From Pseudomonas sp. PDNC002 (GTDB taxonomy: Bacteria; Pseudomonadota; Gammaproteobacteria; Pseudomonadales; Pseudomonadaceae): a stretch of 64,000 nt of DNA. The stretch spans positions 4,281,502 through 4,345,501 of the forward strand of contig NZ_CP070356.1 in the NCBI RefSeq assembly GCF_016919445.1, in the 5' to 3' direction. Of this stretch, positions 26,039 through 50,238 are shown in pieces. Position 1 is the stretch's first letter. The number at the start of each line of letters is the position of its first letter. The notes under the pieces were generated by a model. It was given only the letters and a program-made list of their open reading frames with translations, was not told the DNA's origin and did no database searches. A program made the position numbers and the translations under genes.

Positions 26039-26083
26039 CCCCGTAGCGAGGGGGGTGTGCTTTGCGCGGAGGGGGGGCAATAT
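26039..26083 (+). promoter_or_regulatory. GC palindrome and -10-like hexamer upstream of the MalT-type regulator
   Basis: CCCC-GTAGCGA-GGGG (26039-26053, with further G residues) is an imperfect member of the palindrome family. A CAATAT hexamer starts at 26078, 32 bp from the centre. It may mediate autoregulation of the regulator gene. Confidence 0.45.
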
Positions 26084-26165
26084 CGATCCCGGTACACCCG
26101 AGGCTCCTCGCGTCCATGACGCCGGGCAACGGCGCGCCAGTTATGCAGAAAGGCCAAGAATAACA

Positions 26166-30238: not shown

Positions 30239-31393
<1,155 letters not shown>

Positions 31394-31449: not shown

Positions 31450-33270
31450 GTGTCACAAGAACTGCGTTTCGACGGCAAAGTCGCCATCGTCACCGGCGCC
31501 GGCAATGGCCTCGGCCGTGCCCATGCGCTGCTGCTGGGCTCCCGCGGCGCCAAGGTCGTGGTCAACGATCTGGGCGTCACCACCGAAGGCCTGGGCAGCT
31601 CTTCCGCCGCAGCTGACGCGGTAGTGGAGGAAATCCGCGCCCTGGGCGGCGAGGCCGTGGCCGACTATCACTCGGTGACCGAGGGCGACAAGATCGTCGC
31701 CACCGCTCTGAAGGCGTTCGGCACCGTCGATATCCTGATCAATAACGCCGGCGTGCTGCGCGACACCTCGTTCCACAAGATGACCGAGGAGCAGTGGGAC
31801 CTGATCCAGGCCGTGCACGTCAAGGGCGCCTTCCTACTGACCCACGCTGTGTGGCCGATCATGCGCGAGAAAGGCTACGGCCGTATCGTCATGACCTCCT
31901 CGGGTGCAGGGATCTTCGGCAACTTCGGCCAGTGCAACTACTCCACCGCCAAGGCGGGGCTGATCGGCTTCGCCAACTCTCTGGCCATCGAAGGCGCGAG
32001 TAAGAACATCCGCGTCAACACCATCGCCCCGATCGCCGCCTCGCGCATGGTCATCGCCAGTGGCATCTTCACCGAGGAGATGCAGGCCAAGCTGCGCGTG
32101 GAGGACGTTGCGCCGCTGGTGGGTTGGCTGTGCCACGAGGATTGCCAGGACAGTGGCGAACTGATCGAAGTGGGTGGCGGCTTCCACGCCAAGTACCGCT
32201 GGGAACGTTCGCAAGGCCGCTTCCTGCACACCGACGGTCTCAGCCCGGAGCTGGTACGTGACAACTGGGAGCGCATCGGTCGCTTCGACGAGCACGCTGT
32301 GCACCCGGCGAACGGCGCGGAAAGCTTCAAGGAACTCTTCGAGCGCATGGACACGGCGGCCACCAAGGGCGGCAACCAATTCATCGACATGGAAGTGGCC
32401 GGCAAGGCCGTTTCCTACTTGGAAACCGAGTACGACCAGAACGACGCCGCGCTCTACGCGCTGGCCGTGGGCGCCGCCAAGGACCCGCTGGATCGCGCTG
32501 AACTGCGCTACGTCAACGAATTCGTCGGCGACGAGTTCCGCGTCCTGCCGACCATGGCCGTGCTGCCGGCCACTGAGGTGTTCCTGCGCGCCGCCAAGTC
32601 CGGCGAGCCGCAACTGGAGGGTCTCAACGTGCCGTTCGGCAAGGGGCTGCACGGCGAGCAGTACACCGTCATGTACCGCCCGCTGCCGCCGGCCGCCAAG
32701 CTCAAGCACACCATGCGCCTGAAGACCTCGATCGATAAAGGCAAGAGCACCGTCACCGTTCTGGCCATCGAGACCACCGACGAGCACGGCACGCCGCTGT
32801 TCTACAACGAGGTCACTGGCTTCTATCCGGGCGTACCGGGCGCCGGGTTGGCGAAGGTCGCCAACGAAGAGGTCAACGTACCGCCGGCCCGTGAGCCCGA
32901 CATCGTGCTGTCCGACAAGACCGAGGTGAACCAGGCTTTGCTGTACCGCCTGTGTGGTGACTGGAACCCGATGCACGTCGATCCGGATTACGCCGCCAAG
33001 GCGGGCTACGAGAAGCCGTTCCTGCACGGCCTGTGCACCTTCGGCTATCTCGGCCGCCACGTGATCAAGGCGTTCTGCGACAACGACTCGCGCCTGTTCA
33101 AGAGCGTGCGTGCGCGCTTCGCGGCCATCGTCATGCCTGGCGACACCCTGGAAACCCGCATGTGGCGCGAGTCGCCGACGCGGATCATTGTCGAGATGCG
33201 CGCCGTGGAACGTGACGTGGTGGTGCTGAAGAACGCCGCTGTCGAACTGTTCGAGCAGGTGCCGGCGTAA
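31450..33270 (+). CDS. MFE-2-type fusion: (3R)-hydroxyacyl-CoA dehydrogenase + enoyl-CoA hydratase 2
   Basis: A 606-residue two-domain protein. Residues 1-300 form an SDR (TGAGNGLGRAHALLLGSRGAKVVVNDLG, NNAG, SSGAG, YSTAK). Residues from about 320 form a double-hotdog MaoC-type hydratase with the hydratase-2 signature LCGDWNPMHVDPDYAAKAGYEKPFLHG. This is the architecture of peroxisomal multifunctional enzyme 2 without its SCP2 tail. It would hydrate a trans-2-enoyl-CoA to the (3R)-hydroxy form and oxidise it to 3-ketoacyl-CoA. It sits between the acyl-CoA dehydrogenase pair and a thiolase-like gene, so one operon encodes a nearly complete (3R)-type beta-oxidation cycle. Confidence 0.93.
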   Translation: MSQELRFDGKVAIVTGAGNGLGRAHALLLGSRGAKVVVNDLGVTTEGLGSSSAAADAVVEEIRALGGEAVADYHSVTEGDKIVATALKAFGTVDILINNAGVLRDTSFHKMTEEQWDLIQAVHVKGAFLLTHAVWPIMREKGYGRIVMTSSGAGIFGNFGQCNYSTAKAGLIGFANSLAIEGASKNIRVNTIAPIAASRMVIASGIFTEEMQAKLRVEDVAPLVGWLCHEDCQDSGELIEVGGGFHAKYRWERSQGRFLHTDGLSPELVRDNWERIGRFDEHAVHPANGAESFKELFERMDTAATKGGNQFIDMEVAGKAVSYLETEYDQNDAALYALAVGAAKDPLDRAELRYVNEFVGDEFRVLPTMAVLPATEVFLRAAKSGEPQLEGLNVPFGKGLHGEQYTVMYRPLPPAAKLKHTMRLKTSIDKGKSTVTVLAIETTDEHGTPLFYNEVTGFYPGVPGAGLAKVANEEVNVPPAREPDIVLSDKTEVNQALLYRLCGDWNPMHVDPDYAAKAGYEKPFLHGLCTFGYLGRHVIKAFCDNDSRLFKSVRARFAAIVMPGDTLETRMWRESPTRIIVEMRAVERDVVVLKNAAVELFEQVPA

Positions 33271-33355: not shown

Positions 33356-34468
33356 ATGAATCGTCGCGTCAATGTGATTGGCGTTGGCTTGACCCCGTTC
33401 CGCCTGGCGGGCGCCAGTGGGGCCGGCGCGGACTCGGCCGTTGCGGTCGTGCGCCTGGCCCTGGCGGACGCGGGGATCGATTTCGCCCTGGTCGGCGCGC
33501 TTTACTGCGCTGCCGCCGGCGCGGCGCCCCATGCCGGGCAGGAAGCCTGGCGATCGCTGGGGCTGACCGGCATCCCCGTGTTCAACCTGCAAAGCGACGG
33601 CGCCGGGGGGGCCAGCGCATTGTTGCTGGCGCGCCAGGCGGTGGAGACAGGTGCGGCCGAATGCGTGCTGGTACTCGGCGTGGAGCCGGCCATGGCCCAT
33701 GCCGCCAGCGCTGAAGTCGCCCTGGGCAATGCGCTGCATGGCGCTGCTGCCGAAGAGTACCTGGCGCGCTACGCTGCGCGCCGCGAAAGTCTGGCGATGC
33801 TGGCGGTGAAGGCCCGTGAGCACGCCGCTCGCAATCCCGACGCGCTGCTGCGCGCCCCCCTCAGCCTGGAGCAAGTCCTGCTCGAACCGCAGACTTTCGG
33901 CCCGCTCAGCGCCTCGCAGTGCTGCACTCCCGCCGAGGGCGCCGCCGCGGTGGTGCTGTGCTCCGACGCATTCGCCCGCAAGCGCGGCAACAAGCGCGCG
34001 GTGCGGATTATCGCCCAGGCGCAGTGCGGCGAACTGACGGCAGGGGCCTGTGGGGAGACGGCAATCCGTGCGGCAGGCTATGACATCGCCGCGACCGCCG
34101 CCCGCCTGGTCTATGAGCGCGCCGGCCTGGGGCCGGAGGAAATCGACCTGTGCGAACTTCAGGACGCCACCGGCAGCGCCGAGCTTCTGCTGTATGAGGC
34201 CCTGGGTTTCTGCCGCGAAGGTGACGCGGAGAAGCTCATCGAGGATGGCGACAACACCTATGGCGGCAATCTCGTGGTGAATCCGTCCGGCGGCTTGCTG
34301 GGCCGGGGGCATGCCCTGGGCGCCAGCGGGCTGGCACAATGCGTCGAGCTGGTCCGCCAACTGCGCGGTGCCGCCGATACCCGCCAGGTGCCGGGCGCGC
34401 GCTACGCGCTGCAGCACAGCCAGGGCGTGCAGGGCGACGCTGTGGTGACCCTCTATGCTCGCGACTGA
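33356..34468 (+). CDS. SCP2-type thiolase-like protein lacking the catalytic cysteine
   Basis: 370 residues with the SCP2-thiolase fold: NVIGVGLTPFRLAGA at the start, LIEDGDNTYGGNLVVNPSGGLLGRGHALGASGLAQCVEL near the end. The nucleophile position reads NLQSDGAGGASAL, where the two paralogues in this window have NVNNNC-[SG]-SGS; cysteine is replaced by glycine. The second catalytic block ELHDCF is ELQDAT here, so the histidine and cysteine are also gone; only the GHxxGA histidine remains. Standard thiolysis is therefore unlikely. It could be a retro-aldolase like the Ltp2 group, a structural partner, or a degenerating copy. The frame is intact and within the operon. Confidence 0.88.
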   Translation: MNRRVNVIGVGLTPFRLAGASGAGADSAVAVVRLALADAGIDFALVGALYCAAAGAAPHAGQEAWRSLGLTGIPVFNLQSDGAGGASALLLARQAVETGAAECVLVLGVEPAMAHAASAEVALGNALHGAAAEEYLARYAARRESLAMLAVKAREHAARNPDALLRAPLSLEQVLLEPQTFGPLSASQCCTPAEGAAAVVLCSDAFARKRGNKRAVRIIAQAQCGELTAGACGETAIRAAGYDIAATAARLVYERAGLGPEEIDLCELQDATGSAELLLYEALGFCREGDAEKLIEDGDNTYGGNLVVNPSGGLLGRGHALGASGLAQCVELVRQLRGAADTRQVPGARYALQHSQGVQGDAVVTLYARD

Positions 34469-34545: not shown

Positions 34546-36243
34546 ATGAACGATCAACAAGAAAAACCGACATTGCTACAGCGCTTCCTGCACTGGGAAC
34601 GCCTTATGCCTGACGCCCCCTACCTGCACCAACCGCAAGGCCAGGGACACAATGAAAGCTACAGTTGGCACGCGGTAGGCGAACAGGCCCGGCGCATGGC
34701 CGCGTACCTGCAATCGCTGGATCTGCCCGCGCGCTCCAGCATCGCTATCCTCGGCAAGAACAGCGCGCACTGGATCATCGCCGACCTGGCGATCTGGATG
34801 GCCGGGCACGTCAGCGTTCCGCTGTACCCCTCAGCCAACCGCGATACCGTGGCATATGTACTGGAGCACGCCGAAGTGCGCCTGTTGTTCCTCGGCCACC
34901 TGGACGGCGGCGCCGCGGGCTGGGAGAAACTGCGCGACAGCGTGCCGGCGAGCCTGCCGGTGATCGAATTGCCATTGCTGGCAATTGGCGAAGGGCAATC
35001 CTGGCAGTCCCTGATGGATACCTGGGAGCCGTTGCAGACGGTGGCGCAAACCCGTCGTGCTGACCTGGCCACCATCATCTACACCTCTGGCAGCACCGGT
35101 CGACCCAAGGGGGTGATGCACACCTTCGACAGCATGTGTTCCAGCTGCGAATCGACTGTTGGCATGTATGCAGGCGGAGCTGGCGTGGCGCCGACCGACC
35201 GGCTGCTGTCCTACCTGCCTCTGGCGCACACCGCCGAGCGCGCGGTGGTCGAAGCGCTGTCGTTGCTCAATGGCTGCCAAGTGTTCTTCAACGAAGGACT
35301 GGAGACCTTCGCCGACGACCTGCGCCGGGCGCGGCCGACCATCTTCATGTCGGTGCCGCGGCTGTGGGGCAAGTTCTACCACGGTATCAGCGAGCGCATT
35401 CCACAGTCAGTGCAGCAGGCTGCCTTCGCCGATCCGCAACGCAGCGAGGCGATGCGTCAGCAGATCCTCGGCGCGCTCGGACTGGACCAGGTGCATACCG
35501 CGCTGTCCGGCTCGGCGCCGCTGCCAGTCGCAGTGCTGGAGTGGTATCGCCAGCTCGGCCTGGAGCTGCTGGAGGGCTACGGCATGTCGGAGAACTTCGG
35601 TTGCTCCCACTTCAACCAGCCTGGCGAGGTACGTGTCGGCTACGTTGGTTCGAGTGTGCGCGACGTGCAGTGCAGGATCGCCGAGAACAACGAGATCCTG
35701 GTGAAGAGTCCAGGACAGATGCTCGGCTACTACAAGGAGCCGGAGCTGACCCGCGACAGCTACACCGAGGACGGTTTCTTCCGCACCGGTGACCGTGGCG
35801 AACTGGACGAAGCGGGACGCCTGCGCATCACCGGGCGGGTGAAGGAACTGTTCAAGACCGCCAAGGGTAAGTACGTGGCGCCTGTTCCGATCGAGGCACG
35901 CCTGGGCAACAACGAGCATGTGGAGGGTGCCTGTGTTACCGGCGTTGGTCTGGCGCAACCGGTGGCGCTGATCAATGTCTCGCCGGACACGCGTAACGCG
36001 CTGGCCGCCCCGGAACGGCGGGCGACTCTGGAAGCCGAGCTGGAAGCCTTCCTGGAATCGACCAACCAGCAGCTGGAAGCGCATGAGCGGCTGGCCTGCC
36101 TGGTTCTGGTAAGCGAACCCTGGAACGTCGACAACGGCCTGCTGACGCCGACCCTCAAGATCCGCCGCAACCTCATCGAAGAGCATTACCAGGCGCGCCT
36201 GGACGCCTGGTGTGCGAGCCGTCGCGCGGTAATCGTCGAGTAA
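34546..36243 (+). CDS. Long-chain acyl-CoA synthetase (AMP-forming, FadD-like)
   Basis: A 565-residue ANL-superfamily ligase. The adenylation motifs are YTSGSTGRPKGVMH (P-loop, about residues 180-194), LLEGYGMSE, and the hinge FFRTGDRGELDEAGRLRITGRVKELFKTAKGKYVAPVPIE, with the C-terminal lysine in TPTLKIRR. This fits long-chain fatty or related bulky carboxylate activation. It is the last gene of the operon that begins at 29074 and would supply the acyl-CoA for the dehydrogenases. A small GGGCGC/GCGCCC hairpin lies in the 77-bp gap before it. Confidence 0.92.
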   Translation: MNDQQEKPTLLQRFLHWERLMPDAPYLHQPQGQGHNESYSWHAVGEQARRMAAYLQSLDLPARSSIAILGKNSAHWIIADLAIWMAGHVSVPLYPSANRDTVAYVLEHAEVRLLFLGHLDGGAAGWEKLRDSVPASLPVIELPLLAIGEGQSWQSLMDTWEPLQTVAQTRRADLATIIYTSGSTGRPKGVMHTFDSMCSSCESTVGMYAGGAGVAPTDRLLSYLPLAHTAERAVVEALSLLNGCQVFFNEGLETFADDLRRARPTIFMSVPRLWGKFYHGISERIPQSVQQAAFADPQRSEAMRQQILGALGLDQVHTALSGSAPLPVAVLEWYRQLGLELLEGYGMSENFGCSHFNQPGEVRVGYVGSSVRDVQCRIAENNEILVKSPGQMLGYYKEPELTRDSYTEDGFFRTGDRGELDEAGRLRITGRVKELFKTAKGKYVAPVPIEARLGNNEHVEGACVTGVGLAQPVALINVSPDTRNALAAPERRATLEAELEAFLESTNQQLEAHERLACLVLVSEPWNVDNGLLTPTLKIRRNLIEEHYQARLDAWCASRRAVIVE

Positions 36244-36402: not shown

Positions 36403-37581
36403 ATGACGAACAAAGTCGTGGTCGCCGGAGTCGGCATGATCCCCTTCACCAAGCCGGGGGCGAGCCTGAGCTACGACCTGATGGGCGCCCAGGCCGCGCG
36501 CCTGGCGCTGGAAGACGCGGGGGTGAAGTACAGTGCCATCCAGCAGGCCTATGCCGGCTACATCTACGGCGACTCCTGCTGCGGTCAGCGCGCGCTGTAC
36601 CACGTCGGCCTGAGTGGCATCGCACTGTTCAACGTCAACAACAACTGCTCCAGTGGCTCGACCGCATTGTTCCTGGCTCGCCAGGCGATTCAGAGCGGCG
36701 CCATCGACGTGGCCCTGGTGCTGGGCTTCGAACAGATGAATCCAGGCGCGCTGAGCAGTCACTACAGCGACCGGCCGAACGCCGCCGACCCCTTCATCGA
36801 ACGCTGCGACGCGCTTCTGGACGTCGCCGAGTTGCCCACCGCGTTGCGCATCTTCGGCGGTGCGGGGCTGGCTCACATGCAGCGCTTCGGCACGCCGCTG
36901 CAAAGTTTCGCGAAGATTCGCGCCAAGGCCAGCCGGCATGCCGCGCGCAACCCGCTGGCGGTGTTCCGCAAGGAAGTCAGCCCCGAGGACGTGCTCAACG
37001 ACCAACTGCTCTGGCCGGGCGTGATGACCCGCCTGATGGCCTGCCCGCCGACTTGCGGGGCCGCCGCCGCGGTGCTCTGCAGCGAGGACTACGCGCGCCG
37101 CCATGGTCTGGATGCGCGGGTCTGGATCGCCGCCCAGGCGATGACTACCGACGACGGCCGCAGTTTCGAGGAAGACCTGCGCTATGCCGCCGGCTACGGC
37201 ATGGCTCTGAGCGCCTCGAAGCAGGTCTACGAGGCGGCCGGCATCGGCGCGGAAGACATCGACGTGGTCGAGTTGCACGACTGCTTCGCGCACAACGAAT
37301 TGGTCACCTATGAAGGCCTCGGCCTGTGCCCCGAAGGTGGCGCAGCGAAGTTCATCGACGACGGCGACAACACCTACGGCGGCCGCTACGTGGTCAATCC
37401 GTCCGGTGGCCTGCTGTCGAAGGGCCATCCGATCGGCGCTACCGGCCTTGCCCAGTGCTACGAGCTGACCCAGCAACTGCGCGGCAATGCCGAGCAGCGC
37501 CAGGTCGAGGGCGCCCGCGTTGCCCTCCAGCATAACGTCGGCATCGGCGGCGCCTGCGTCGTCACCCTGTACCGCAACTGA
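36403..37581 (+). CDS. SCP2-type thiolase (acetyl-CoA acyltransferase-like)
   Basis: 392 residues from the ATG at 36403, preferred because GGAGG at 36392-36396 lies at proper distance; two ATGs slightly upstream are in frame. The catalytic set is complete: NVNNNCSSGSTAL (nucleophilic Cys), ELHDCFAHNE and GHPIGATG. This should cleave a 3-ketoacyl-CoA. It opens an operon with a two-gene acyl-CoA dehydrogenase and an alkyl sulfatase. It is closely related to the thiolase at 52455 and more distantly to the inactive-looking one at 33356. No DUF35 partner is present. Confidence 0.93.
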   Translation: MTNKVVVAGVGMIPFTKPGASLSYDLMGAQAARLALEDAGVKYSAIQQAYAGYIYGDSCCGQRALYHVGLSGIALFNVNNNCSSGSTALFLARQAIQSGAIDVALVLGFEQMNPGALSSHYSDRPNAADPFIERCDALLDVAELPTALRIFGGAGLAHMQRFGTPLQSFAKIRAKASRHAARNPLAVFRKEVSPEDVLNDQLLWPGVMTRLMACPPTCGAAAAVLCSEDYARRHGLDARVWIAAQAMTTDDGRSFEEDLRYAAGYGMALSASKQVYEAAGIGAEDIDVVELHDCFAHNELVTYEGLGLCPEGGAAKFIDDGDNTYGGRYVVNPSGGLLSKGHPIGATGLAQCYELTQQLRGNAEQRQVEGARVALQHNVGIGGACVVTLYRN

Positions 37582-37591
37582 GGACGCCGCC

Positions 37592-38806
37592 ATGGATTTT
37601 CTTCCCGACGCCGGCCTGGACCAGTTCCGCCAGGAGATCCGCGAGTTCCTGCGCCTGCACCTGCCGGCTGAATTGGCGGGCAAACCGAGCTCCAGCATCC
37701 GTTCCGCGCTGCCCGACCTGGTGCGCTGGCAACGCATCCTCGATGAGCGCGGCTGGGGCGCGCCGTACTGGCCGAAAGAGCATGGCGGCACCGGTTGGAG
37801 TGTGCTGCAACGCCTGGTTTTCGACGAGGAATGCGTCGCTGCCGGTGCACCAACCCTCGACGGCTTCGCGCACAAGTTGCTCGGGCCGGTGATCAATCAC
37901 TTCGCCAGCGCCGAACAAAAGGCCGCGCAGATTCCACTGATCCTCAAGGCCGAGCGCCTGTGGTGCCAGGGCTTCTCCGAGCCGGGCTCGGGCTCGGACC
38001 TGGCGTCGCTGCGTACCCGCGCTGATCTGGATGGCGATCACTACGTGATCAATGGCCAGAAGATCTGGACCAGCTATGCCCACCAGGCCGACTGGATCTT
38101 CCTGCTGGTGCGCACTGACTCCAGCGCCCGCAAGCAAGCCGGCATCAGCTTCCTGCTGGTGGACATGAAGACCGCGGGCATCACCGTACGACCGATCCAC
38201 AGCATCGACGGCTGCCATCACCTCAACGAGACCTTCTTCGACAACGTCCGTGTGCCGGTGACTCACCGCATCGGCAACGAAGGCGATGGCTGGAAGATCA
38301 CCAAGTTCCTGCTCAACAACGAACACGCCACCGCCGCCGACCTGCCGATCCTGCGCCGCTACCTGATGCAACTGCGCCAGTTGGCGCGCAGCCTGCCGGC
38401 AGGTGACGGGTGGCTCGGCGAACAGACAGGGTTCGCCCGGCAACTCGCAGGTTTTGAGGCCGAGGTCGATGCGGTCGCCATGCTGGTCAAGCGCGTGGCG
38501 GCGATGGAGCAGGCCGGCGACCACAGCCCGGCGGCCCACGCCTTGGGGTCGATCCTGAAGGTGCGTGGTACCGAACTGCAGCAGCGCATCACTGAGTTCA
38601 TGGTGCAGGCGCTGGGTGACTCCGGCGCCATCGCCTATCCGACTCCTGAGGATCAGCCCGAGGCCCCCCCCGGCGCGGAACTGCCGCAGGAAGCGCTGGC
38701 CCGTGGCATCGCCATGGAAATGTTCTTCCGCCGCGCCTCGACCATCTACGGCGGCACCAGCGAGGTCCAGCGCGGGATCATCGCCAAGATGCTGTTTCAA
38801 CTCTGA
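37592..38806 (+). CDS. Acyl-CoA dehydrogenase, subunit of a probable heteromeric enzyme (A)
   Basis: 404 residues, starting 10 bp after the thiolase stop. The motifs GFSEPGSGSDLASLRTRADLDGDHYVINGQKIWTSYAHQADW and FFRRASTIYGGTSEVQRGIIAKML are those of the FadE17/FadE28-like group. The YEGT glutamate is glycine, but a glutamate in KFLLNNEHATA may serve. It is followed after 15 bp by a second, divergent acyl-CoA dehydrogenase gene; such adjacent pairs form alpha2beta2 enzymes in steroid side-chain degradation. That suggests a bulky or branched acyl-CoA substrate. Confidence 0.9.
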   Translation: MDFLPDAGLDQFRQEIREFLRLHLPAELAGKPSSSIRSALPDLVRWQRILDERGWGAPYWPKEHGGTGWSVLQRLVFDEECVAAGAPTLDGFAHKLLGPVINHFASAEQKAAQIPLILKAERLWCQGFSEPGSGSDLASLRTRADLDGDHYVINGQKIWTSYAHQADWIFLLVRTDSSARKQAGISFLLVDMKTAGITVRPIHSIDGCHHLNETFFDNVRVPVTHRIGNEGDGWKITKFLLNNEHATAADLPILRRYLMQLRQLARSLPAGDGWLGEQTGFARQLAGFEAEVDAVAMLVKRVAAMEQAGDHSPAAHALGSILKVRGTELQQRITEFMVQALGDSGAIAYPTPEDQPEAPPGAELPQEALARGIAMEMFFRRASTIYGGTSEVQRGIIAKMLFQL

Positions 38807-38821
38807 ACGGGCCCAGCAACC

Positions 38822-39997
38822 ATGAATTTCGAACTTTCTTCCGAGCAGCAGATGCTGCAGGACAGCGTGCGCCGCTTCATCGACAAGGAGTACAGCTTCG
38901 AGACTCGCGTCGCCCGCCTGCAGGCGGGTGAAGGTAGCGATTCCAGCTGGACTACCTTTGCCGAACAGGGCTGGCTCTGTGCCGCACTTCCGGAGGCCCA
39001 TGGCGGCCTTGGCGGCAACATAGTCGACAGTGTGGTGATCGCCCAGGAACTGGGTCGCGGACTGGTTCTCGCGCCTTATGCCGGCTGCGCCGTGCTGGCC
39101 GCGCAGACCCTGGTCGCCGCGGCAGCACCTGAACATCAGGAGCGCTGGTTGCCGGCCCTGGCCGATGGCTCTGCACGGCTGGCCCTGGCTTATGCCGAGG
39201 TGCAGACCCGTGGGCTGGTGGAGAGGCAACGCGCTAGCGCGAAACGCCATCCTGGCGGCTATCGGCTGAACGGCCGCAAGACGCTGGTAATGGGCGGCAC
39301 GCAGGCCAATGCGTTCATCATTTCCGCGCAGGCGGAGGAGGGCTGCACGCTGTTCCTGGTGGAGGCTGACCTCCCAGGTCTGGGCCTGATCCCGGTACCG
39401 CTGCACGACGGCAGCTGGGTGGTGGAGTTGCAACTGTCGCAGGTCGACGTCAGCGAAGCCGCCGTACTGGGACGACCGGGCGAGGGCCTGGCTGCGCTGC
39501 GCCAGGGCGTGGCCCAGGCCACTGCCTGCCTCTGCGCCGAGCTGGTGGGCGGCATGGAGCGGGTCATCGAGATCAGCGCTGACTATCTCAAGGTGCGCCA
39601 GCAGTTCGGAGTACCCATCGGCAGCTTCCAATCCCTGCAGCATCGCATGGCCGACATGGCAGCTCAGCTTGAGCTGGCACGATCGGCCTTGTTCGTCCTG
39701 CTCGATGCCATCGACAACCCGCAGATCCACGACCTGCAGCTGCGGACCTCGCAGATCAAGGCGCAGGTCGGCCGCGCGGCTAAGTTCGTCTGCGGGCAGG
39801 CCATCCAGTTGCATGGCGGGATCGGTACTACCGAGGAGTGCAGCGTTGGCCACTACTTCAAGCGCGCGGTAGTCGCAGACCTGCTCCTGGGCAGCGCTGA
39901 CAGCCATGAAGCTTACTGCACCCAGCGGCAGCAGGCGGCCCTCGCGGACGCTGCCATGTCGGCGACGATGAATTCAATGACTTACGGAGAACAATAA
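38822..39997 (+). CDS. Acyl-CoA dehydrogenase, subunit of a probable heteromeric enzyme (B)
   Basis: 391 residues. The C-terminal half is well conserved (RQQFGVPIGSFQSLQHRMADMAAQLELARSALF, QLHGGIGTTEECSVGHYFKRA), while the usual TEPxxGSD loop in the middle is replaced by YAEVQTRGLVERQRASAKRH, so FAD or substrate binding in this subunit is probably incomplete. This asymmetry is typical of the second chain in heteromeric acyl-CoA dehydrogenases. Its TAA stop overlaps the ATG of the alkyl sulfatase gene (TAATG), giving translational coupling. Confidence 0.88.
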   Translation: MNFELSSEQQMLQDSVRRFIDKEYSFETRVARLQAGEGSDSSWTTFAEQGWLCAALPEAHGGLGGNIVDSVVIAQELGRGLVLAPYAGCAVLAAQTLVAAAAPEHQERWLPALADGSARLALAYAEVQTRGLVERQRASAKRHPGGYRLNGRKTLVMGGTQANAFIISAQAEEGCTLFLVEADLPGLGLIPVPLHDGSWVVELQLSQVDVSEAAVLGRPGEGLAALRQGVAQATACLCAELVGGMERVIEISADYLKVRQQFGVPIGSFQSLQHRMADMAAQLELARSALFVLLDAIDNPQIHDLQLRTSQIKAQVGRAAKFVCGQAIQLHGGIGTTEECSVGHYFKRAVVADLLLGSADSHEAYCTQRQQAALADAAMSATMNSMTYGEQ

Positions 39998-42000
39998 TGA
40001 TTTCCCTCACTACCTCGGGCATGTGCCGCCGAAATGCCCTGGCGCTCGCCGTCCTGCTGGCATGCACGGGTATGGCCAGCGCAGCGGAGGCGGACAACGG
40101 CCAGGCCCTGGCAAAACCGGCCAGCGCGGCGACCCGTGCCAGCAACGCAGCAGTGCTGCAGGCGCTGCCGTTCACCGACCGGCAGGACTACGAAGATGCC
40201 AGCCGCGGCTTGGTCGCTGCATTCTCCGGTCAGATCAAGGACGCCAACGGCAAGGTGGTCTGGGATACCCACCAGTACGACTTCCTCAACGCCGAGCAGG
40301 CCCCGGATTCGGTGAACCCGAGTCTCTGGCGGATGGCCCAGCTCAACAGCAACGCCGGGCTGTTCCAGGTTGCCGAGCGCCTCTACCAGGTGCGCGGGAT
40401 GGACCTGGCGAACATGACGATTATCGAGGGCGACAAGGGCCTGGTGATCATCGATCCGCTGATGACCAGCGAAACGGCGCGTGCCGCCCTTGACCTGTAC
40501 TACCGTAATCGCCCGCAGCGTCCGGTGACGGCGGTGATCTATACGCACAGCCATATCGATCACTTCGGTGGCGTTCGCGGAGTCATCGACGAGGCCGATG
40601 TGGTCGCCGGCAAGGTGCAGGTATACGCGCCCAGCGGCTTCATGGAAGAGGCGGCGAGCGAAAACGTCTTCGCCGGCACCGCGATGTTCCGCCGTGCCCA
40701 ATACCAGTCAGGCGGCCTGGTGCCGCGAGGGGACAAAGGGCAGGTGGATACGGGTATCGGCAAGGGCGGCCCAACCGGCGGCAGCATTGGCCTGATCGCC
40801 CCGACCGTGCTGATCGACAAGTCCAATCAGCAGGTGCGCGTCGATGGCATCGACATCGAGTTTCAGCTGACCCCCGGCAGCGAAGCGCCGGCGGAGATGA
40901 ACCTGTACCTACCGCAGATGCGCGCGCTGTGCATGGCCGAGAATGCCACCCACACCCAGCACAACATCCTCACCCCACGGGGTGCGCTGGTACGTGACGC
41001 CAAGGCCTGGGGCCGCTACCTCGACGACAGCCTGGTGCGCTATGGCAACCGTGCCGACGTGATGTTCGCCCAGCACAACTGGCCGACCTGGGGCGGCGAG
41101 CGGATCCGCACGCTGCTGGCCGACCAGCGCGACATGTATACCTACATCAACGACCACACCCTGCACCTGCTCAACCAGGGCCTGACCCCGACAGAGATTG
41201 CAGCAGCGATGCAGAAGCTGCCGGGCGACCTGGAACGCAAATGGTACAACCGAGGCTACTACGGCTCGCTCAGCTTCAACTCGCGTGCGGTGTACCAGCG
41301 CTACATGGGTTTCTATGACGGCAACCCGGCCAACCTCGACCCATTGCCGCCGCAGGACGCCGGCACTCGCTATGTCGAGGCGCTGGGAGGCGCGGAGCAC
41401 GTGCTGGAGCTGATGCGCGCTGCGATGGACAAGGGCGATTACCGCTGGGCGGTAGAGCTGGGTAACCACCTGGTTTTCGCCCAACCGGACAATCGTGCGG
41501 CCCGTGACGCACAGGCCGACGCGCTGGAACAGCTGGGCTACCAGGCCGAGAGTTCGTTGTGGCGCAACATGTACCTGTCGGCAGCCGTCGAGCTGCGCAA
41601 TGGGGTGCGCCAGGCGAGCCTTCGCAAGCCTTCGGCAGATTTGGTCAAGGCGCTGGAGCCGTCGATGTTCTTCGACTACATGGCGGTGCGCCTGAATGCC
41701 GAACGGGCGCAAGGCCACGACATGCAATTGAACTGGACCTTCACCGATCGCCAGCAGAGCTTTGCCCTGACCCTGCGCAACGGCGTGCTGACCTATCGCG
41801 AGAACAGTAGCCACGCGCACCCCGATGCGACGCTGAGCATCGACAAGGCTACGCTGGACCGCATCAGCCTCAAGGAGCTGGATTTCCCCTCCGCGCTCAA
41901 GCAGGGCCTGGCCAAGGTGGAGGGGGACCCGCGCAAGCTGGGCGAGCTGATGAGCATGCTGGATGCCTTCACGCCGGACTTCAATATCGCCACGCCCTGA
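39997..42000 (+). CDS. SdsA1-like alkyl sulfatase (metallo-beta-lactamase fold), exported
   Basis: A 667-residue protein with a signal sequence (ALAVLLACTGMASA). The metallo-beta-lactamase motif THSHIDHFGG gives the zinc ligands His184, His186, Asp188 and His189; AENATHTQHN supplies further ligands. The middle helical dimerisation region and the C-terminal SCP2-like domain (NWTFTDRQQSFALTLRNGVLTYREN) match SdsA1, the enzyme that hydrolyses primary alkyl sulfates such as dodecyl sulfate; a secondary-alkyl (Pisa1-like) specificity is possible. It is the last gene of the thiolase/acyl-CoA dehydrogenase operon, which directly links sulfate-ester hydrolysis to beta-oxidation. The product would be an alcohol plus sulfate. 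Confidence 0.95.
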   Translation: MISLTTSGMCRRNALALAVLLACTGMASAAEADNGQALAKPASAATRASNAAVLQALPFTDRQDYEDASRGLVAAFSGQIKDANGKVVWDTHQYDFLNAEQAPDSVNPSLWRMAQLNSNAGLFQVAERLYQVRGMDLANMTIIEGDKGLVIIDPLMTSETARAALDLYYRNRPQRPVTAVIYTHSHIDHFGGVRGVIDEADVVAGKVQVYAPSGFMEEAASENVFAGTAMFRRAQYQSGGLVPRGDKGQVDTGIGKGGPTGGSIGLIAPTVLIDKSNQQVRVDGIDIEFQLTPGSEAPAEMNLYLPQMRALCMAENATHTQHNILTPRGALVRDAKAWGRYLDDSLVRYGNRADVMFAQHNWPTWGGERIRTLLADQRDMYTYINDHTLHLLNQGLTPTEIAAAMQKLPGDLERKWYNRGYYGSLSFNSRAVYQRYMGFYDGNPANLDPLPPQDAGTRYVEALGGAEHVLELMRAAMDKGDYRWAVELGNHLVFAQPDNRAARDAQADALEQLGYQAESSLWRNMYLSAAVELRNGVRQASLRKPSADLVKALEPSMFFDYMAVRLNAERAQGHDMQLNWTFTDRQQSFALTLRNGVLTYRENSSHAHPDATLSIDKATLDRISLKELDFPSALKQGLAKVEGDPRKLGELMSMLDAFTPDFNIATP

Positions 42001-42016: not shown

Positions 42017-42042
42017 AAAGGCCACCCCAGGGTGGCCTTTTT
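42017..42042. terminator. Bidirectional rho-independent terminator
   Basis: AAAGGCCACC-CCAG-GGTGGCCTTTTT follows the alkyl sulfatase stop by 16 bp. With A residues on the left and T residues on the right it can serve both this operon and the converging alcohol dehydrogenase gene ending at 42055. Confidence 0.9.
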
Positions 42043-42054: not shown

Positions 42055-43116
42055 TCAGCGCTGCGCTTCGCCTTGCAGGCTGCCCATGTCGATGACGAAG
42101 CGGTACTTCACGTCGTTCTTCTGCAGGCGCTCCAGAGCCGTGTTGATATCCTGCATGGCGATGGTCTCGCACTCCGGCAGGACCTGGTGCTCGGCGCAGA
42201 AGTCCAGCAGCTCCTGAGTGGCCGGCAGGCCGCCCATCAGCGAGCCGGCGATGGACCGGTCATTGATCATCAGCAGCGCACCGTGGATCGGCTCCAGCGG
42301 CTCCAGCGCGCCGATCAGCACCAGCTTACCGCCACGGGCCAGCAGCATCAGGTAGGGATTGACGTCGTGTCGGCTGGGAATGGTGTCGAGGATGATGTCG
42401 AAGCTGGCGTAGGCAGCCTTCACTGCGGCCGCGTCCTTCGACAGCAGCACGTGCTGGGCACCCAGCGCGCGGGCGTCGTCGGCCTTGTGCGGGGATGTGG
42501 TGAGCACCGTCACCTCGGCGCCCATCGCCCGTGCCAGCTTGACCGCCAGATGACCGAGCCCGCCCAGGCCGACCACCGCGAGGCGGGTGCCAGCTTGCAC
42601 GGCATATTTGCGCAGTGGCTGCCAGACGGTGATGCCGGCGCATAGCAGCGGCGCGGCCCTGGCGGGGTCGAGCGACTCCGGCAGGCGCAGGACGAACTTC
42701 TCGCGCACCACGATGGATTGCGAGTAGCCGCCGTAGGTCAGGTCGCCGCTGATTCGATCCTTGCCGTTATAAGTCGGGGTGAACATCATCGCGCAGAGCT
42801 GCTCCTGGCCTTCCTCGCAGGCCGCGCAGTGCTGGCAGCTGTCGACCATACAGCCGACCGCCACGCTGTCGCCTACCTGGTAGCGGCTGACCGTCGGGCC
42901 CACGGCGGTGACCCGGCCGATGATCTCGTGGCCCGGAACACAGGGAAACACGCTGCTGTTCCAGTCGTTGTGCAGGTAGTGGAGATCCGAGTGGCAGACC
43001 CCGCAATGGCTGATGGCAATCTGCACGTCATCGTCGCGCAGGTCACGGCGTTGCAGGCGCGTTGGTGCAAGTGGAGCGTGGGCAGCGGGGGCGGCGTAGG
43101 CGAGGCAATGGCTCAT
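42055..43116 (-). CDS. Zinc-dependent alcohol dehydrogenase (YahK/CAD type)
   Basis: 353 residues from the ATG at 43116 with a GGAGAAATCC ribosome site. Catalytic zinc ligands are in GVCHSDLH and GHEIIG; the structural zinc site is CQHCAACEEGQEQLC; the coenzyme loop is VVGLGGLGHLAVKLARAMGAEVTV. This subgroup usually reduces or oxidises aldehydes and primary alcohols with NADP(H). It is the third gene of a minus-strand unit after the adenylate-forming and LuxC-like genes, so interconversion of a long or bulky alcohol and its aldehyde is the natural role. Confidence 0.92.
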   Translation of the reverse strand: MSHCLAYAAPAAHAPLAPTRLQRRDLRDDDVQIAISHCGVCHSDLHYLHNDWNSSVFPCVPGHEIIGRVTAVGPTVSRYQVGDSVAVGCMVDSCQHCAACEEGQEQLCAMMFTPTYNGKDRISGDLTYGGYSQSIVVREKFVLRLPESLDPARAAPLLCAGITVWQPLRKYAVQAGTRLAVVGLGGLGHLAVKLARAMGAEVTVLTTSPHKADDARALGAQHVLLSKDAAAVKAAYASFDIILDTIPSRHDVNPYLMLLARGGKLVLIGALEPLEPIHGALLMINDRSIAGSLMGGLPATQELLDFCAEHQVLPECETIAMQDINTALERLQKNDVKYRFVIDMGSLQGEAQR

Positions 43117-43196: not shown

Positions 43197-44654
43197 TCAA
43201 AGGGAAGGGCGCAGCCAGGGCGCGGCGGTAGTTTCCGGCGAGGCGATCTGGTTGGAGATCCACTTGCCCATGCGTCGCATCGGCTCAATGGCATCCTGCG
43301 GCGCCTGCCATTTCATCGCCGCCGCATAACCCAGCGAAACGATGCGCTGGGCGCCATACAGCGGCAGGATGTTCTTCAGCTCGTCCTTGACCGCTTCGGG
43401 ATAGACGCCGACGGTCTGGGTGTAGGCATCCACTGCATCCAGCACCTCGTTCAGCTCGTCGACGGGGACCAGGTTGGCGGTGCGGTCATCGAGCAGGGGG
43501 GCAAAGGACACGGGCTCGGGCAGCTGCGAGCAGATGATCGCGCCTTCGCCGTCCTGGCCGCCGATCACTCGGTACCATTCGTCATCTAGACGCAGCGCGT
43601 CGACGTGTGCCTTCAGCCCCTGGTCGTAGCGCTTGGGCGCAGTGCTCAGGGTATTGGGTAGCGTCTGCAGCGCATCGTAGACATAGCGGCCGAAGGTGTT
43701 GAGCCGCTCCAGACCTGATTCGTCGGTGCCGCTCTGCACGTAGATGACCCGCGCGCAGACACAGCCTTTCTGGTTCAGCGCGCCGATATCGGTGGCCAGG
43801 CGCAGAGCCGCTTCGCGCATGCACACTTCGCTGGCGAAGGTGTCCTCGCCGATTACACTCGCGCTGCGCTTCGGATCAAGGGAGATCAGCTCCAGACCCG
43901 GCTGGATGTAACGGGTTACATGCTTGAGTGCGGCGAAGCCACCCCAGGCGACGATCTTCTCGATGTTCTGCGGCTGGTAAAGGCGTTGTTCCAGGGCCTG
44001 GTCGCCACCTTTCCAGTAGGCGACCGACAGGTGTTTGGTGAGCGGGTGCTCCGGCGCCATCTCGACCATGGTGCGGGCGATGGCCAGCGCGGTGAACGGG
44101 TCGTTGGACGGTGCCTTGATGATGGCGTCGCTGCGCAGCACCATGTTGCGCAGGATGGTCACCAGCGACAGTGGGGCGGCATTGCCGGCGACGATGTGCA
44201 GGGTGCGGGAGCCGAAGCAACGGGTCTCGAGTTCGGTGCCATCGAGTAGGCGCTGGTGGACCCAGCCTTCGAGGTACTTGATGCCGACGGTGCTTTCGAC
44301 CATTTCCACGATGAAGTTGCGGTCCAGGTACTGACGCAGGCTCATGTAGGCGGCCTTGACCATGGTCGGGGTCACCGGCGCGGTCTGGTAGGAAAGTTCG
44401 CAGGCTTCCTGGAGAAACGGGTTGGTCGACAGGTCAAGTCGCTCGGCCAGGGCGCCGGCGTAGTCGAGGATGTCCTCGAAGCTGAGCTGGTACAGATCGG
44501 CCAGCTTGGCTGGATTGCCCAGTGGCAGCCTGTCGATGTACTGGTGTGCGTCCGGGGTCAGGAAGCTCAGGTCGCCGCCACGGCCACCGACTTCGACCAG
44601 GTTGTCAGTAATGACTTCGCCGCGAATGATCATCGGCGCAATGGGTTTGCTCAT
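43197..44654 (-). CDS. LuxC-like acyl-CoA reductase (NADPH/NADH-dependent)
   Basis: 485 residues from the ATG at 44654, 4 bp after the stop of the upstream adenylate-forming gene. It resembles the LuxC/acyl-CoA reductase family of the aldehyde dehydrogenase superfamily: FGSRTLHIVAGNAAPLSLVTILRNMVLRSDAIIKAPSNDP (coenzyme side) and GALNQKGCVCARVIYVQ with the nucleophilic cysteine. LuxC reduces fatty acyl groups to aldehyde; in a catabolic setting the reverse, aldehyde plus CoA to acyl-CoA, is equally possible. No luxAB genes are present, so this is not a light operon. Confidence 0.88.
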   Translation of the reverse strand: MSKPIAPMIIRGEVITDNLVEVGGRGGDLSFLTPDAHQYIDRLPLGNPAKLADLYQLSFEDILDYAGALAERLDLSTNPFLQEACELSYQTAPVTPTMVKAAYMSLRQYLDRNFIVEMVESTVGIKYLEGWVHQRLLDGTELETRCFGSRTLHIVAGNAAPLSLVTILRNMVLRSDAIIKAPSNDPFTALAIARTMVEMAPEHPLTKHLSVAYWKGGDQALEQRLYQPQNIEKIVAWGGFAALKHVTRYIQPGLELISLDPKRSASVIGEDTFASEVCMREAALRLATDIGALNQKGCVCARVIYVQSGTDESGLERLNTFGRYVYDALQTLPNTLSTAPKRYDQGLKAHVDALRLDDEWYRVIGGQDGEGAIICSQLPEPVSFAPLLDDRTANLVPVDELNEVLDAVDAYTQTVGVYPEAVKDELKNILPLYGAQRIVSLGYAAAMKWQAPQDAIEPMRRMGKWISNQIASPETTAAPWLRPSL

Positions 44655-44658: not shown

Positions 44659-46089
44659 TTAGCCCTCAAAGGAATTCAGGAAGTCCATGGCCTCGCGGTG
44701 CGAGTTGTCCGACGCGGCGCAGGTGATCTTGTCGTCGCCGCCGTTTTTCTCGCTGTAGCGCTGGATCGCGCCGACCACGTAGCGGCTGGGCCGGCCGCAG
44801 GTGCAGGGCTGGTCCCATTCGACGGTGATTTCGTCACCGGTGATGAAACCACCCCAGTGCACATCGGCGCCCAGGTCATAGAAGGCCGCACGGCCGGTCT
44901 GCTGCCCGCTACGCGGTAGCGGCTTGCTGGTCTGCGGATCGAGCACGAAGGGGATCACGGTGTGGGCGAAGTGGTAGTTGCCCTGCTCGCAGCGCAAGTG
45001 CGAGCCGCTGACCACTTCGGACATGGCGTAGGACTCGTTGATGCGCCGCGCACCGGTGAACCGCAGCACCTCCTCACGCCAGCCTTCAGGCTGCACCACG
45101 CCCTTGGCGCCACCGGTGGTGGCGATGTAGGAGTCCGAATGGAATACGCCTTCCAGCCCCCGTTCCAGACCGGCCTTGGCCATGTTGTGCAGCAGGCTCC
45201 AGGTGCCGCCGATATACACCCGCTTGCCTTGCAGCTCGCTGGCCATGCGGTCGAAGAAGGTGGCCAGGTGCTGGGGCATCTGCGCCTGCTGTTCGTCGAA
45301 GGACTTCTTCTTGGCCAGCAGGGCCGGGTTGATCACCAGCCGATCGAGGGTGCCGCGTGCTTGCGCCGCACGAACCTTGGCACCCAGGTGCAGCACGTCG
45401 CTGGAGAGGGTGTCGGGATAGGCGGCATGGAAGTTCGCCTCGCTCGGCAGCAACTGCTGCATCAGCGCCACGTTGCCGCGCAGATGACTCAGGTAGCCAT
45501 TGCGGTAGTACGGGTAGGCAGTGTGCATCTCGGGGCGCGGCGAATCGGGGCCCTGCAGGTTCCAGGCGAACATGCTGCGCACCGCGCAGGCCTTTTCGAA
45601 TTCGCGGTTGCTGTTGGGCAGGAAGGAGAGGGTGCCCGAGGTACCGGAGGTATGGCTGATGCACAGTTGCGGCAGTGCCGCATCCATGGTCTCAAACCAG
45701 TCGTCGAGTCCCTGGCAGGCACTGACGTCCACGGCGCAGATCGCCTCGCCGATTTCGGGCGTGACCAGCTTGGCCAGCCATTTGTTGATCGCGGCGAAGT
45801 TGTTCTTCTCCAGCAGCGACGGCGGGTAGGACTTGAACACCGTATGCTCGAAGAGCAACGGCACCACATCTTCAACCGTATCGATGCGCTCCAGCCCTTC
45901 GCCATCGGCCAGTTTCTTCAGCACCGGAATTCGTCCGCGCAACTGGGCGAAACGCAGCTTCAGTCCTGCGAGTTGCAGGGCATCGACCTCTTCGCGCGGC
46001 AAGTGGCTCCAGGTCTGGCAGGAATGCCCAGCAAGGGCGACGGGGTCGTTCAGCAGCAGCTGCGTTCTTTGTTCCAGCGATGCAGTCAT
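44659..46089 (-). CDS. LuxE/phenylacetate-CoA-ligase-like adenylate-forming protein
   Basis: A 476-residue protein with an ANL-type phosphate loop (SHTSGTSGTLSFLP), a middle ESYAMSE motif, and ITVEWDQPCTCGRPSRYVVGAIQRYSEKNGGDDKI, where aryl-CoA ligases carry GDxxR-like and hinge residues. The layout is closer to PaaK/LuxE-type enzymes than to FadD. It is the first gene of the unit with the LuxC-like reductase and Zn alcohol dehydrogenase, and probably activates a carboxylate (or transfers an acyl group) for that reductase. Whether it forms a CoA ester or an acyl-protein is not clear. Confidence 0.82.
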   Translation of the reverse strand: MTASLEQRTQLLLNDPVALAGHSCQTWSHLPREEVDALQLAGLKLRFAQLRGRIPVLKKLADGEGLERIDTVEDVVPLLFEHTVFKSYPPSLLEKNNFAAINKWLAKLVTPEIGEAICAVDVSACQGLDDWFETMDAALPQLCISHTSGTSGTLSFLPNSNREFEKACAVRSMFAWNLQGPDSPRPEMHTAYPYYRNGYLSHLRGNVALMQQLLPSEANFHAAYPDTLSSDVLHLGAKVRAAQARGTLDRLVINPALLAKKKSFDEQQAQMPQHLATFFDRMASELQGKRVYIGGTWSLLHNMAKAGLERGLEGVFHSDSYIATTGGAKGVVQPEGWREEVLRFTGARRINESYAMSEVVSGSHLRCEQGNYHFAHTVIPFVLDPQTSKPLPRSGQQTGRAAFYDLGADVHWGGFITGDEITVEWDQPCTCGRPSRYVVGAIQRYSEKNGGDDKITCAASDNSHREAMDFLNSFEG

Positions 46090-46468: not shown

Positions 46469-47620
46469 ATGGCGACGCTGACTTTCAATACGACTCCATC
46501 CATTCACATCGAGCGCGGCGCGTCCGCGCGATTGGCCGAACGTGTGCGCAGCATGGGCTGCCGCTCGGTACTGCTGGTCACTGATCCGGGCGTCCTGGGC
46601 GCCGGACTGCTGCAGCCAGTGATTGACGATTTCGCCCGCAGTCAGCTATCGCTGCGCGTGTTCGCTGAAGTCCAGGCCGACCCGCCGGAGAGCGTGATCG
46701 AGGCTGCGGTATCCACGGCGCTGGAATGCGAGGCCGATTGCGTGATCGGTCTGGGCGGCGGTAGCTCTCTGGACGCTGCGAAGCTGGCGGCACTGCTGGC
46801 GCGCAGCGGCGAGTCGCTGGCTTGCGTCTACGGCACCGAGGTGGCGCGCGGGCCCCGCCTGCCGCTGATCCTGGTGCCGACCACGGCGGGTACCGGCTCT
46901 GAGGTGACCGCGGTATCCGTGGTCACCAATGGCGACGGGCAGAAGAGCGTGGTTATCTCGCCCTTGTTGCTGCCGGACCTCGCGGTACTTGATGCCGACC
47001 TGACTATCGGCTTGCCGTCGCATGTCACGGCGGCCACCGGGATCGATGCGATGGTCCATGCCATCGAGGCCTTCACCAGCCGCCACCGCAAGAATCCGAT
47101 TTCCGATTGCCTGGCGCGTGAAGCCCTGCGCCTGCTGTCTGGAAGTATCGAGCGCGCGTGCAGCAGCGGTGCAGATATCCAGGCCCGCGAAGACATGCTC
47201 ATGGGCGCCTGCCTGGCCGGCATGGCGTTCGCCAATTCGCCGGTGGCGGCGGTGCATGCGCTGGCCTACCCGTTGGGTGCGCGCTTCCATGTGCCTCACG
47301 GCCTGTCCAATTCGCTGATGCTGCCCGGTGTGCTGCGCTTCAACCAGGACGCTGCGGCGCCTCTCTATGCCGAACTGGCGGATATCGTCCTGCCGGGGCT
47401 GGAGGGTGACGCACGAAGCAGGACACAGGCGCTGATCGAGTACTTCACCGACCTGCCGCTGCGCTTGCGCCTGCCGACTCGCCTGCGAGAGGTCGGGGTA
47501 GCCGAGAATGACCTTGAGGGGTTGGCCGAGGACGCGCTGAAACAGGGTCGCCTGCTCGCCAACAACCCGCGCGAGGTCAGCCTGAATGCGGCGCTTGCAC
47601 TGTATCAGGCGGTACTGTGA
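46469..47620 (+). CDS. Iron-containing alcohol dehydrogenase (group III)
   Basis: 383 residues from the ATG at 46469. Family motifs are GLGGGSSLDAAKLAALLA (NAD loop), PTTAGTGSEVTAVSVV, ATGIDAMVHAIEAF, and the iron-ligand region AVHALAYPLGARFHVPHGLSNSLMLP. It oxidises a primary alcohol or reduces an aldehyde. It is divergent from the LuxC-like unit, with which it may share the substrate, and its stop overlaps the GTG of the next thioesterase gene. This gives the block two unrelated alcohol dehydrogenases. Confidence 0.93.
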   Translation: MATLTFNTTPSIHIERGASARLAERVRSMGCRSVLLVTDPGVLGAGLLQPVIDDFARSQLSLRVFAEVQADPPESVIEAAVSTALECEADCVIGLGGGSSLDAAKLAALLARSGESLACVYGTEVARGPRLPLILVPTTAGTGSEVTAVSVVTNGDGQKSVVISPLLLPDLAVLDADLTIGLPSHVTAATGIDAMVHAIEAFTSRHRKNPISDCLAREALRLLSGSIERACSSGADIQAREDMLMGACLAGMAFANSPVAAVHALAYPLGARFHVPHGLSNSLMLPGVLRFNQDAAAPLYAELADIVLPGLEGDARSRTQALIEYFTDLPLRLRLPTRLREVGVAENDLEGLAEDALKQGRLLANNPREVSLNAALALYQAVL

Positions 47621-48051: not shown

Positions 48052-48110
48052 AGCGCCTTGGCACCGTGCAGCCTCGGCGCGGTGCCAAGTCAGCCGGAGG
48101 GCTGGAAACC

Positions 48111-50223: not shown

Positions 50224-50238
50224 GATCGGTTACCTGCG

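Follow-up and report, generated by a model that had tools for sequence, protein, structure and literature searches.

Why should the gene for an alkylsulfatase begin inside the stop codon of an acyl-CoA dehydrogenase gene? The question is posed by a 64,000-nucleotide stretch (hereafter the window) of the single-contig, 6.39-Mb genome of Pseudomonas sp. PDNC002 (contig NZ_CP070356.1, positions 4,281,502 to 4,345,501), in which four closely packed plus-strand genes encode a thiolase (thl2, 36403..37581), the two chains of a putative acyl-CoA dehydrogenase (ACDa, 37592..38806, and ACDb, 38822..39997) and a sulfatase (39997..42000). Gaps of 10 nt between thl2 and ACDa and 15 nt between ACDa and ACDb, taking as starts of thl2 and ACDa ATGs chosen inside longer listed open reading frames, lead to a TAATG at 39995-39999, in which the last A of the ACDb TAA (39995-39997) is the first base of the sulfatase ATG (39997-39999). 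We confirmed the coordinates, packing and overlap given in a preliminary description of this DNA, and found the identical TAATG in two sister genomes (G006 and G007; junction loci L116 and L117), whose cluster proteins are 98-99% identical to those of the window genome (G000). The sulfatase is also 99% identical to that of a named relative, P. nicosulfuronedens (L004). In this lineage the sulfatase gene is probably co-transcribed with ACDb and perhaps translationally coupled to it, as the preliminary description had put more firmly; the overlap is real and makes coupling plausible, but the sulfatase has its own GGAG at 39986-39989, seven bases 5' of its ATG (GGAG and overlap together span 39986..39999 on the plus strand), so the overlap alone cannot establish coupling.

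What might the arrangement be for? On the strength of gene content, gene order, recurrence and residue patterns, all of them observed directly, we lean toward reading the block as one catabolic pathway for the sulfate esters of a bulky or methyl-branched alcohol, this being our best guess at the substrate; the reactions, the export of the sulfatase, the direction of a LuxC-type acyl-CoA reductase and the substrate class are what we infer.

By its domains and active site the 39997-42000 product is a type III alkylsulfatase. Pfam recognizes a metallo-β-lactamase domain (PF00753), Alkyl_sulf_dimr (PF14863) and the SCP2-like Alkyl_sulf_C (PF14864), all zinc-site residues are present (H184, H186, D188, H189, E296, E315 and H360), and a Sec-type N terminus can be seen by eye in the sequence. 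The ligand pattern THxHxDH ... E ... AE ... H is there as well; the strict spacing given in the accessible part of PMC3346939 is unmatched, because the first Glu lies one residue further along. The closest solved structure is that of Pisa1 (2yhe, 914 bits; 4av7, 915 bits, a sequence that differs at both of the gate positions discussed below), ahead of SdsA1 (2cfu, 666 bits), with 62% identity to the former and 50% to the latter. The label "SdsA1-like" used in the preliminary description belongs to another gene, since the SdsA1 relative of this genome is encoded separately, at L115, and is 76% identical to SdsA1. Together with a third copy at L114, which has Phe at the gate and falls in the Pisa1 branch, the genome has three type III enzymes. 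The L114 locus (G000:C1:4505000-4524900) accompanies its sulfatase with its own short-chain dehydrogenase/reductase (SDR), SCP2-type thiolase, acyl-CoA dehydrogenase and FadE homologues, an arrangement that recurs, with gaps, in L170, L171, L178, L179, L180 and L181.

What sets the window sulfatase apart from these relatives? Excerpts of PMC5426288 describe Ser233 and Phe250 of Pisa1 as important for its preference and place Tyr and Gly at these positions in SdsAP and SdsA1. The window sulfatase has Ser238 at the place of Ser233 and Gly255 at that of Phe250, with Glu315 where Pisa1 has Asp; the two small gate residues together should make for a wider pocket than that of Pisa1 or SdsA1. Among 141 rows, 30 have S, G, A or T at position 238 and are here termed small-gate; the remaining 111 have F, Y or L. 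In two maximum-likelihood trees the small-gate sequences included form one clade (support 98/94 and 97/94; 16 of the 53 rows each time), with Pisa1 outside it, in a sister branch with F- and L-gate sequences that include L114. Relatives at 68-73% identity are found in Massilia, Cupriavidus and Sphingomonas among the named sulfatase loci, which are the best 80 of 590, and within the clade the window sulfatase groups with these genera (100/98), apart from other Pseudomonas, which suggests horizontal transfer of the gene into the window lineage. A search of 171 plasmid records showed no carrier of a clade sulfatase, the best places all being below 60% identity; at 1e-270 the sulfatase was found in 4 of the 398 genomes of a phylum draw, all Pseudomonadaceae.

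The clade also differs in what stands directly in front of the sulfatase gene. In 19 of the 30 small-gate rows, and in none of the 111 others, a same-strand acyl-CoA dehydrogenase gene ends fewer than 400 nt before the sulfatase (no row was dropped from this count, and the same genome may occur in it under two locus ids); among the clade rows of the trees, 9 of 16 have such a gene directly upstream. The clade has 11 other Pseudomonas rows, and in seven of them the gene before the sulfatase is that of a different acyl-CoA dehydrogenase, ACx, which has the MCAD-type Glu; six of these seven also have ACy, which has none; ACy was not detected in L160 and is partial in L163. The usual order there is BNR - MMPL - ACx - ACy - sulfatase - TetR - LuxE - LuxC - Ahr, with TetR not detected in L010. 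In the window lineage a close orthologue of ACx is missing; a relative at 54-55%, located elsewhere, is all that was found. Compared with the window, ACDb lacks 12 residues at each of the seven relative loci inspected, the extra C-terminal tail of the window protein lying right at the sulfatase junction, and another gene comes next, in G022 one that by its motif we take to be MaoC-like, followed by a gene for a CaiB-family protein. The ACx pairing and the comparison of these seven loci together indicate that the TAATG fusion is lineage-specific and that the pairing of the sulfatase clade with an acyl-CoA dehydrogenase is not. It is this directly upstream gene that is special, rather than β-oxidation genes nearby. 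The preliminary description had such sulfatases usually standing without β-oxidation genes, yet a homologue of a window β-oxidation gene lies within 5 kb at 14 of 31 non-clade loci and at 9 of 13 clade loci (eight loci with short flanks were dropped from our flank-based counts).

Are ACDa and ACDb one enzyme? Both have acyl-CoA dehydrogenase domains in Pfam, and together they look like a heteromeric two-chain dehydrogenase. In such enzymes only one chain carries the catalytic Glu, according to the accessible text of PMC8399759; ACDa keeps a Glu aligned with that of 4x28_A, and in ACDb the two positions at which this Glu is known to occur hold Ala and Leu. The top solved matches of ACDa are 4x28_A, 6wy9_A and 6wy8_B, and those of ACDb start with 6wy8_A and have 4x28_D in fourth place, with single-chain enzymes scoring about equally. 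We take 4x28, presumably ChsE4-ChsE5, and 6wy8/6wy9 to be two-chain steroid acyl-CoA dehydrogenases. The two-chain signature proposed earlier for this pair thus holds up, and so does the SCP2-type assignment of thl2, which matches PRK08256 at 654 bits and the SCP2-thiolase type 1 structure 6hsj at 452 bits, and keeps the NNNC, ELHDCF and GHPIGATG motifs with the nucleophile Cys, the HDCF His and GHP.

Further β-oxidation genes precede thl2 on the plus strand. An MFE-2-type fusion (31450..33270) joins an SDR 3-hydroxyacyl-CoA dehydrogenase to a MaoC-type hydratase 2 (Pfam), its best solved matches being 2et6 and the peroxisomal MFE-2 3oml. The SCP2-thiolase-like protein thl1 (33356..34468) is 43% identical to thl2, but has Gly at the place of the catalytic Cys and has lost the HDCF His in the alignment to 6hsj; it is probably no real thiolase and might act as a structural partner or as an aldolase-like enzyme. 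No match to DUF35, which is linked to the hydratase and aldolase of proteobacterial steroid side-chain clusters, was found among the window open reading frames scanned with Pfam, which were part of the total. Pfam also identifies two acyl-CoA dehydrogenases that are 79% identical to each other, ACD1 (29074..30216, with ATG 29074 picked as the start within the frame 28969-30216) and ACD2 (30239..31393), and Pfam and NCBIfam an AMP-forming acyl-CoA ligase (34546..36243). Between the ligase gene and thl2 lie about 160 bp, so one transcript for the whole set cannot be assumed.

Facing the sulfatase on the minus strand is a cassette of an Ahr-like zinc alcohol dehydrogenase/aldehyde reductase (42055..43116; NCBIfam AldhRedAhr, 337 bits, under the cut-off of 470), a LuxC-type acyl-CoA reductase (43197..44654; PF05893, 128 bits) and a LuxE/PaaK-like adenylate-forming enzyme (44659..46089). 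The last has no Pfam match; its AlphaFold model (pLDDT 85) is placed by Foldseek closest to PaaK1/PaaK2 (TM about 0.5), and source annotation names some homologues LuxE or phenylacetate-CoA ligase. We suppose that the cassette runs catabolically, toward acyl-CoA, the sequences fitting either direction. Beyond it, on the plus strand, are an iron-dependent alcohol dehydrogenase (46469..47620, within the frame 46361-47620; Pfam, NCBIfam) and, by domain search, a 4HBT thioesterase (47617..48051).

How often do these genes travel together? LuxC orthologues (at least 81% identity) occur in 15 of 398 genomes, and LuxC lies near the sulfatase at 10 of the 13 clade loci with enough flank versus 0 of 31 other loci. 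ACDa orthologues (at least 67% identity) occur in 10 of 338 Pseudomonadaceae genomes; all ten are among the 15 LuxC genomes, which may not all be in the 338, and ACDa lies 5.6-17.2 kb from LuxC in each of the ten. Eight of the ten have a clade sulfatase 2.4-21.6 kb from ACDa; outside the window lineage (G022, G127, G145, G237 and G299) this distance is 19-22 kb, and by simple arithmetic a 22-kb radius covers about 0.7% of such a genome. Clade sulfatases were recognized in 11 of 398 genomes (the gate was read in 33 of 46 hits), and all 11 carry LuxC. In the LuxC carriers G014, G017, G020 and G295 no clade sulfatase was seen, the gate of the G014 hit being unread.

The wider neighborhood recurs in pieces. 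Much of the window set surrounds the sulfatase of G022 within about 76 kb (L176, L156, L118 and L177), including an arylsulfatase (70%), DUF1302/DUF1329 genes, LuxE-LuxC-Ahr, thl2-ACDa-ACDb, the ligase (56%) and the iron-dependent alcohol dehydrogenase with its thioesterase (78/79%). G141 (L222) has ACD1, ACD2, MFE-2 (83%), thl1 (50%) and the ligase (68%) at 12-23 kb from its sulfatase, and G153 (L223) the other arylsulfatase (89%) and a HisD-family gene (91%) at 11-13 kb. The window looks like a mosaic of both flavors of neighborhood. The dedicated pathway for sulfated bulky alcohols that the preliminary description envisaged therefore stands in so far as sulfatase, two-chain dehydrogenase, LuxC, alcohol dehydrogenases and arylsulfatases recur, rearranged, in other Pseudomonas; its steroid component, taken up below, does not. 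Outside this group, the actinobacterial alkylsulfatase loci L040, L041 and L063 have ACDa/ACDb-like genes about 2-3 kb away, L041 with an ACDa match alone, at the end of its contig.

How would such a pathway work? By analogy with Pisa1 and SdsA1, the exported zinc sulfatase would remove the sulfate in the periplasm, and the freed alcohol would be imported and then oxidized by the alcohol dehydrogenases. A CoA thioester could be made by the LuxC-type enzyme, by the acyl-CoA and LuxE-like ligases, or by both, after which the two-chain dehydrogenase, the MFE-2-type hydratase/dehydrogenase and the SCPx-type thiolase would shorten the chain, a set that resembles the enzymes of peroxisomal branched-chain oxidation.

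A bolder reading, which we regard as possible rather than probable, is that the small-gate clade forms a branch of its own among type III alkylsulfatases, so far undescribed, whose members have an enlarged active-site gate and are dedicated to sulfated branched or isoprenoid alcohols; it would have been transferred among alpha-, beta- and gammaproteobacteria, twice placed directly behind a two-chain acyl-CoA dehydrogenase and embedded in a conserved supercluster with LuxE-LuxC-Ahr. Several observations count against these proposals. Gly255 and Glu315 are shared by all 89 aligned rows and so are usual in the family, Pisa1 being the exception; only position 238 therefore distinguishes the clade, and there Pisa1 has Ser too. 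The exact ACDb-sulfatase fusion is seen only in three near-identical genomes of one lineage, and seven of the 16 clade rows of the trees have no directly upstream acyl-CoA dehydrogenase, among them all three rows from outside the genus Pseudomonas (L005 leaves little room for one). In G017 and G020 both modules, ACDa and LuxC, are present and no clade sulfatase was found (the match in G020 being F-gate), so that the other genes can occur without the sulfatase; there (L216 and L217) the ACx-ACy pair is directly followed by the TetR gene. A scan for sigma-70-type promoters gave no excess either, with 2 found against 2.4 expected.

Could the locus instead serve surfactant breakdown? Linear secondary (or primary) alkyl sulfates would then feed ordinary fatty-acid oxidation, and the branched-chain look of the enzymes would be incidental. 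Pisa1, the closest solved relative, acts on secondary alkyl sulfates (PMC3920027, in excerpt), Ser238 equals its Ser233, and SdsAP1 and SdsAP2, said in the accessible part of PMC6107682 to be closest to Pisa1, degrade sodium dodecyl sulfate (SDS), although they may lie outside the small-gate clade. The dodecanol derived from SDS is oxidized by laoABC in P. aeruginosa, as cited in the same part of PMC6107682. Gly255 and Glu315 are nevertheless unlike Pisa1, the clade lies outside the Pisa1 branch, and the window and some of its relatives pair the sulfatase with MFE-2-like, SCPx-like and two-chain dehydrogenase genes. P. umsongensis DSM 16611, whose genome carries the small-gate type (L010, among the best 80 of 590 loci), is moreover described in that text as unable to degrade SDS, a failure that may stem from regulation or uptake. 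We consider a surfactant pathway unlikely, and prefer one for a bulky or methyl-branched alcohol sulfate.

Might the TAATG be a recent accident, with a horizontally acquired sulfatase landing behind ACDb, scavenging sulfur and having no link to the pathway? The grouping with Massilia, Cupriavidus and Sphingomonas would fit, as would the shorter ACDb and the different next gene at 7 of 7 relative loci. Yet five of those same relatives hold a clade sulfatase at most 22 kb from ACDa, another acyl-CoA dehydrogenase pair precedes the clade sulfatase there (only ACx being detected in G127), and the junction is intact in three genomes. An accident seems to us rather improbable, somewhat more so than a surfactant route, and we retain the view that sulfatase and dehydrogenase belong to one catabolic pathway.

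Is the bulky alcohol a steroid? The best solved matches of ACDa and ACDb include steroid acyl-CoA dehydrogenases, the MFE-2 and SCPx enzymes resemble side-chain enzymes, and the window genome encodes a KshA_C protein above cut-off and a KstD-like protein whose top NCBIfam model is 3-ketosteroid-delta-1-dehydrogenase (611 bits, under the cut-off of 789). Of 25 genomes of the genus, 12 encode KshA_C and the same 12 a KstD orthologue (E<=1e-180); the window genome is one of them. G006 and G007, with the same arrangement, have no KstD orthologue at this threshold and no KshA_C match, the best KstD relative in G007 being 42% identical. Within the genus, KstD is present in 3 of 8 LuxC carriers versus 9 of 17 non-carriers (p=0.67); family-wide it is commoner in carriers (10/15 versus 59/383, p=2e-5), an excess that we set aside because it is confounded by kinship. 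The KstD model gave weak matches in all 14 control genomes, above cut-off in none of them, nor in the window genome, and the KshA_C search matched 1 of the 14 controls, under cut-off. No steroid gene set was recognized beside ACDa/ACDb, and the five open reading frames scanned near the KshA_C gene had no steroid-gene match at E<=1e-30. Elsewhere in the genome, the KstD-like gene lies at L199 (G000:C1:3483800-3503700, at 3.48 Mb) among genes for SDRs, two enoyl-CoA hydratases, a FabK-like protein and a PimC-like acyl-CoA dehydrogenase, possibly a steroid-type ring-degradation cluster. With the ring markers absent from two of the three genomes that share the exact arrangement and no association within the genus, a specific steroid link is unsupported, and a pathway for steroid or bile-alcohol sulfates, such as the bile alcohol sulfates of fish, in which the two-chain dehydrogenase would act on the sterol side chain, is the least probable of the alternatives.

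The remaining features of the window surround the proposed pathway. A MalT-type LuxR-family regulator (26016..28823, plus strand; AAA, TPR_MalT and GerE in Pfam) precedes ACD1 and has homologues near the clusters of relatives, and domain searches place a TetR-type regulator (48066..48797, plus strand), a homologue of which lies 3' of the sulfatase in several relatives, before DUF1329 and DUF1302 genes (48859..52104, minus strand). In the accessible part of PMC6394551, monoterpene metabolism in Castellaniella is linked to a cluster that combines DUF1302 and DUF1329 with an RND transporter. A terminator-like hairpin (42017..42040, no strand assigned) lies between the convergent operons; the scan found six such sites in the stretch covered against 9.7 expected in shuffles, so this site alone is weak. 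Two type I sulfatases on the minus strand carry the formylglycine motifs CTAGR (17299..18897) and CTPSR (62425..63873), by Pfam and motif, the latter with homologues in several relatives' clusters. The former belongs to a minus-strand set (17299-24013) with a LacI regulator, an MFS transporter, a histidinol-dehydrogenase-family protein and an SDR, parts of which recur in G153 (L223) and G299 (L220). At 2797-9666 a 2289-residue trimeric autotransporter (YadA head, stalk and anchor) lies in a stretch (1-20 kb) whose GC content, 58-61%, is below that of the remaining window sequence.

What does the locus add to known systems? SDS is man-made. The natural substrates of type III alkylsulfatases are largely open, as the accessible text of PMC3346939 states for SlfS and SdsA1; a sulfatase clade whose gene order connects it with a defined β-oxidation and acyl-reductase set offers a concrete route to a natural substrate, and makes this locus a place to look for the environmental turnover of sulfated branched or terpenoid alcohols. 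An alkylsulfatase operon leading to acyl-CoA is already known: the slf operon of the Psychrobacter plasmid pP62BP1 combines an alkylsulfatase with alcohol and aldehyde dehydrogenases and an acyl-CoA ligase, and is proposed to take alkyl sulfate to acyl-CoA (PMC3346939, in excerpt). It differs in that a term search of the available text of PMC3346939 found no mention of an acyl-CoA dehydrogenase or thiolase, and its SlfS is 57% identical to SdsA1. In the literature searched, from which subscription papers were mostly missing, so that absence from print is unproven, we found no alkylsulfatase joined to a two-chain acyl-CoA dehydrogenase or to LuxC; the window genes probably form one little-studied pathway for sulfated bulky alcohols. 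With ChsE4-ChsE5 and Tcur3481/Tcur3483 (4x28, 6wy8/9) the ACDa-ACDb pair shares two chains and a Glu in one of them, following the rule in the accessible text of PMC8399759, whereas the similarity is moderate (178 bits for ACDa, 105 bits for ACDb). Pisa1, the sec-alkylsulfatase of Pseudomonas sp. DSM 6611 (2yhe), is likewise type III, 62% identical and has Ser at the first gate position, but has Phe250 and an Asp at a zinc-ligand place where the window enzyme has Gly and Glu, and belongs to another supported clade. SdsA1 of P. aeruginosa (2cfu), also type III, shares the second-gate Gly and the Glu ligand, but is 50% identical and has Tyr at the gate where the window enzyme has Ser. The peroxisomal MFE-2/SCPx pathway carries out branched-chain β-oxidation, and the window enzymes find their best solved matches in its SDR-hydratase-2 fusion and SCP2-thiolase type 1; in the window, by contrast, the set forms a bacterial operon, with a two-chain dehydrogenase in place of the oxidase and a sulfatase attached.

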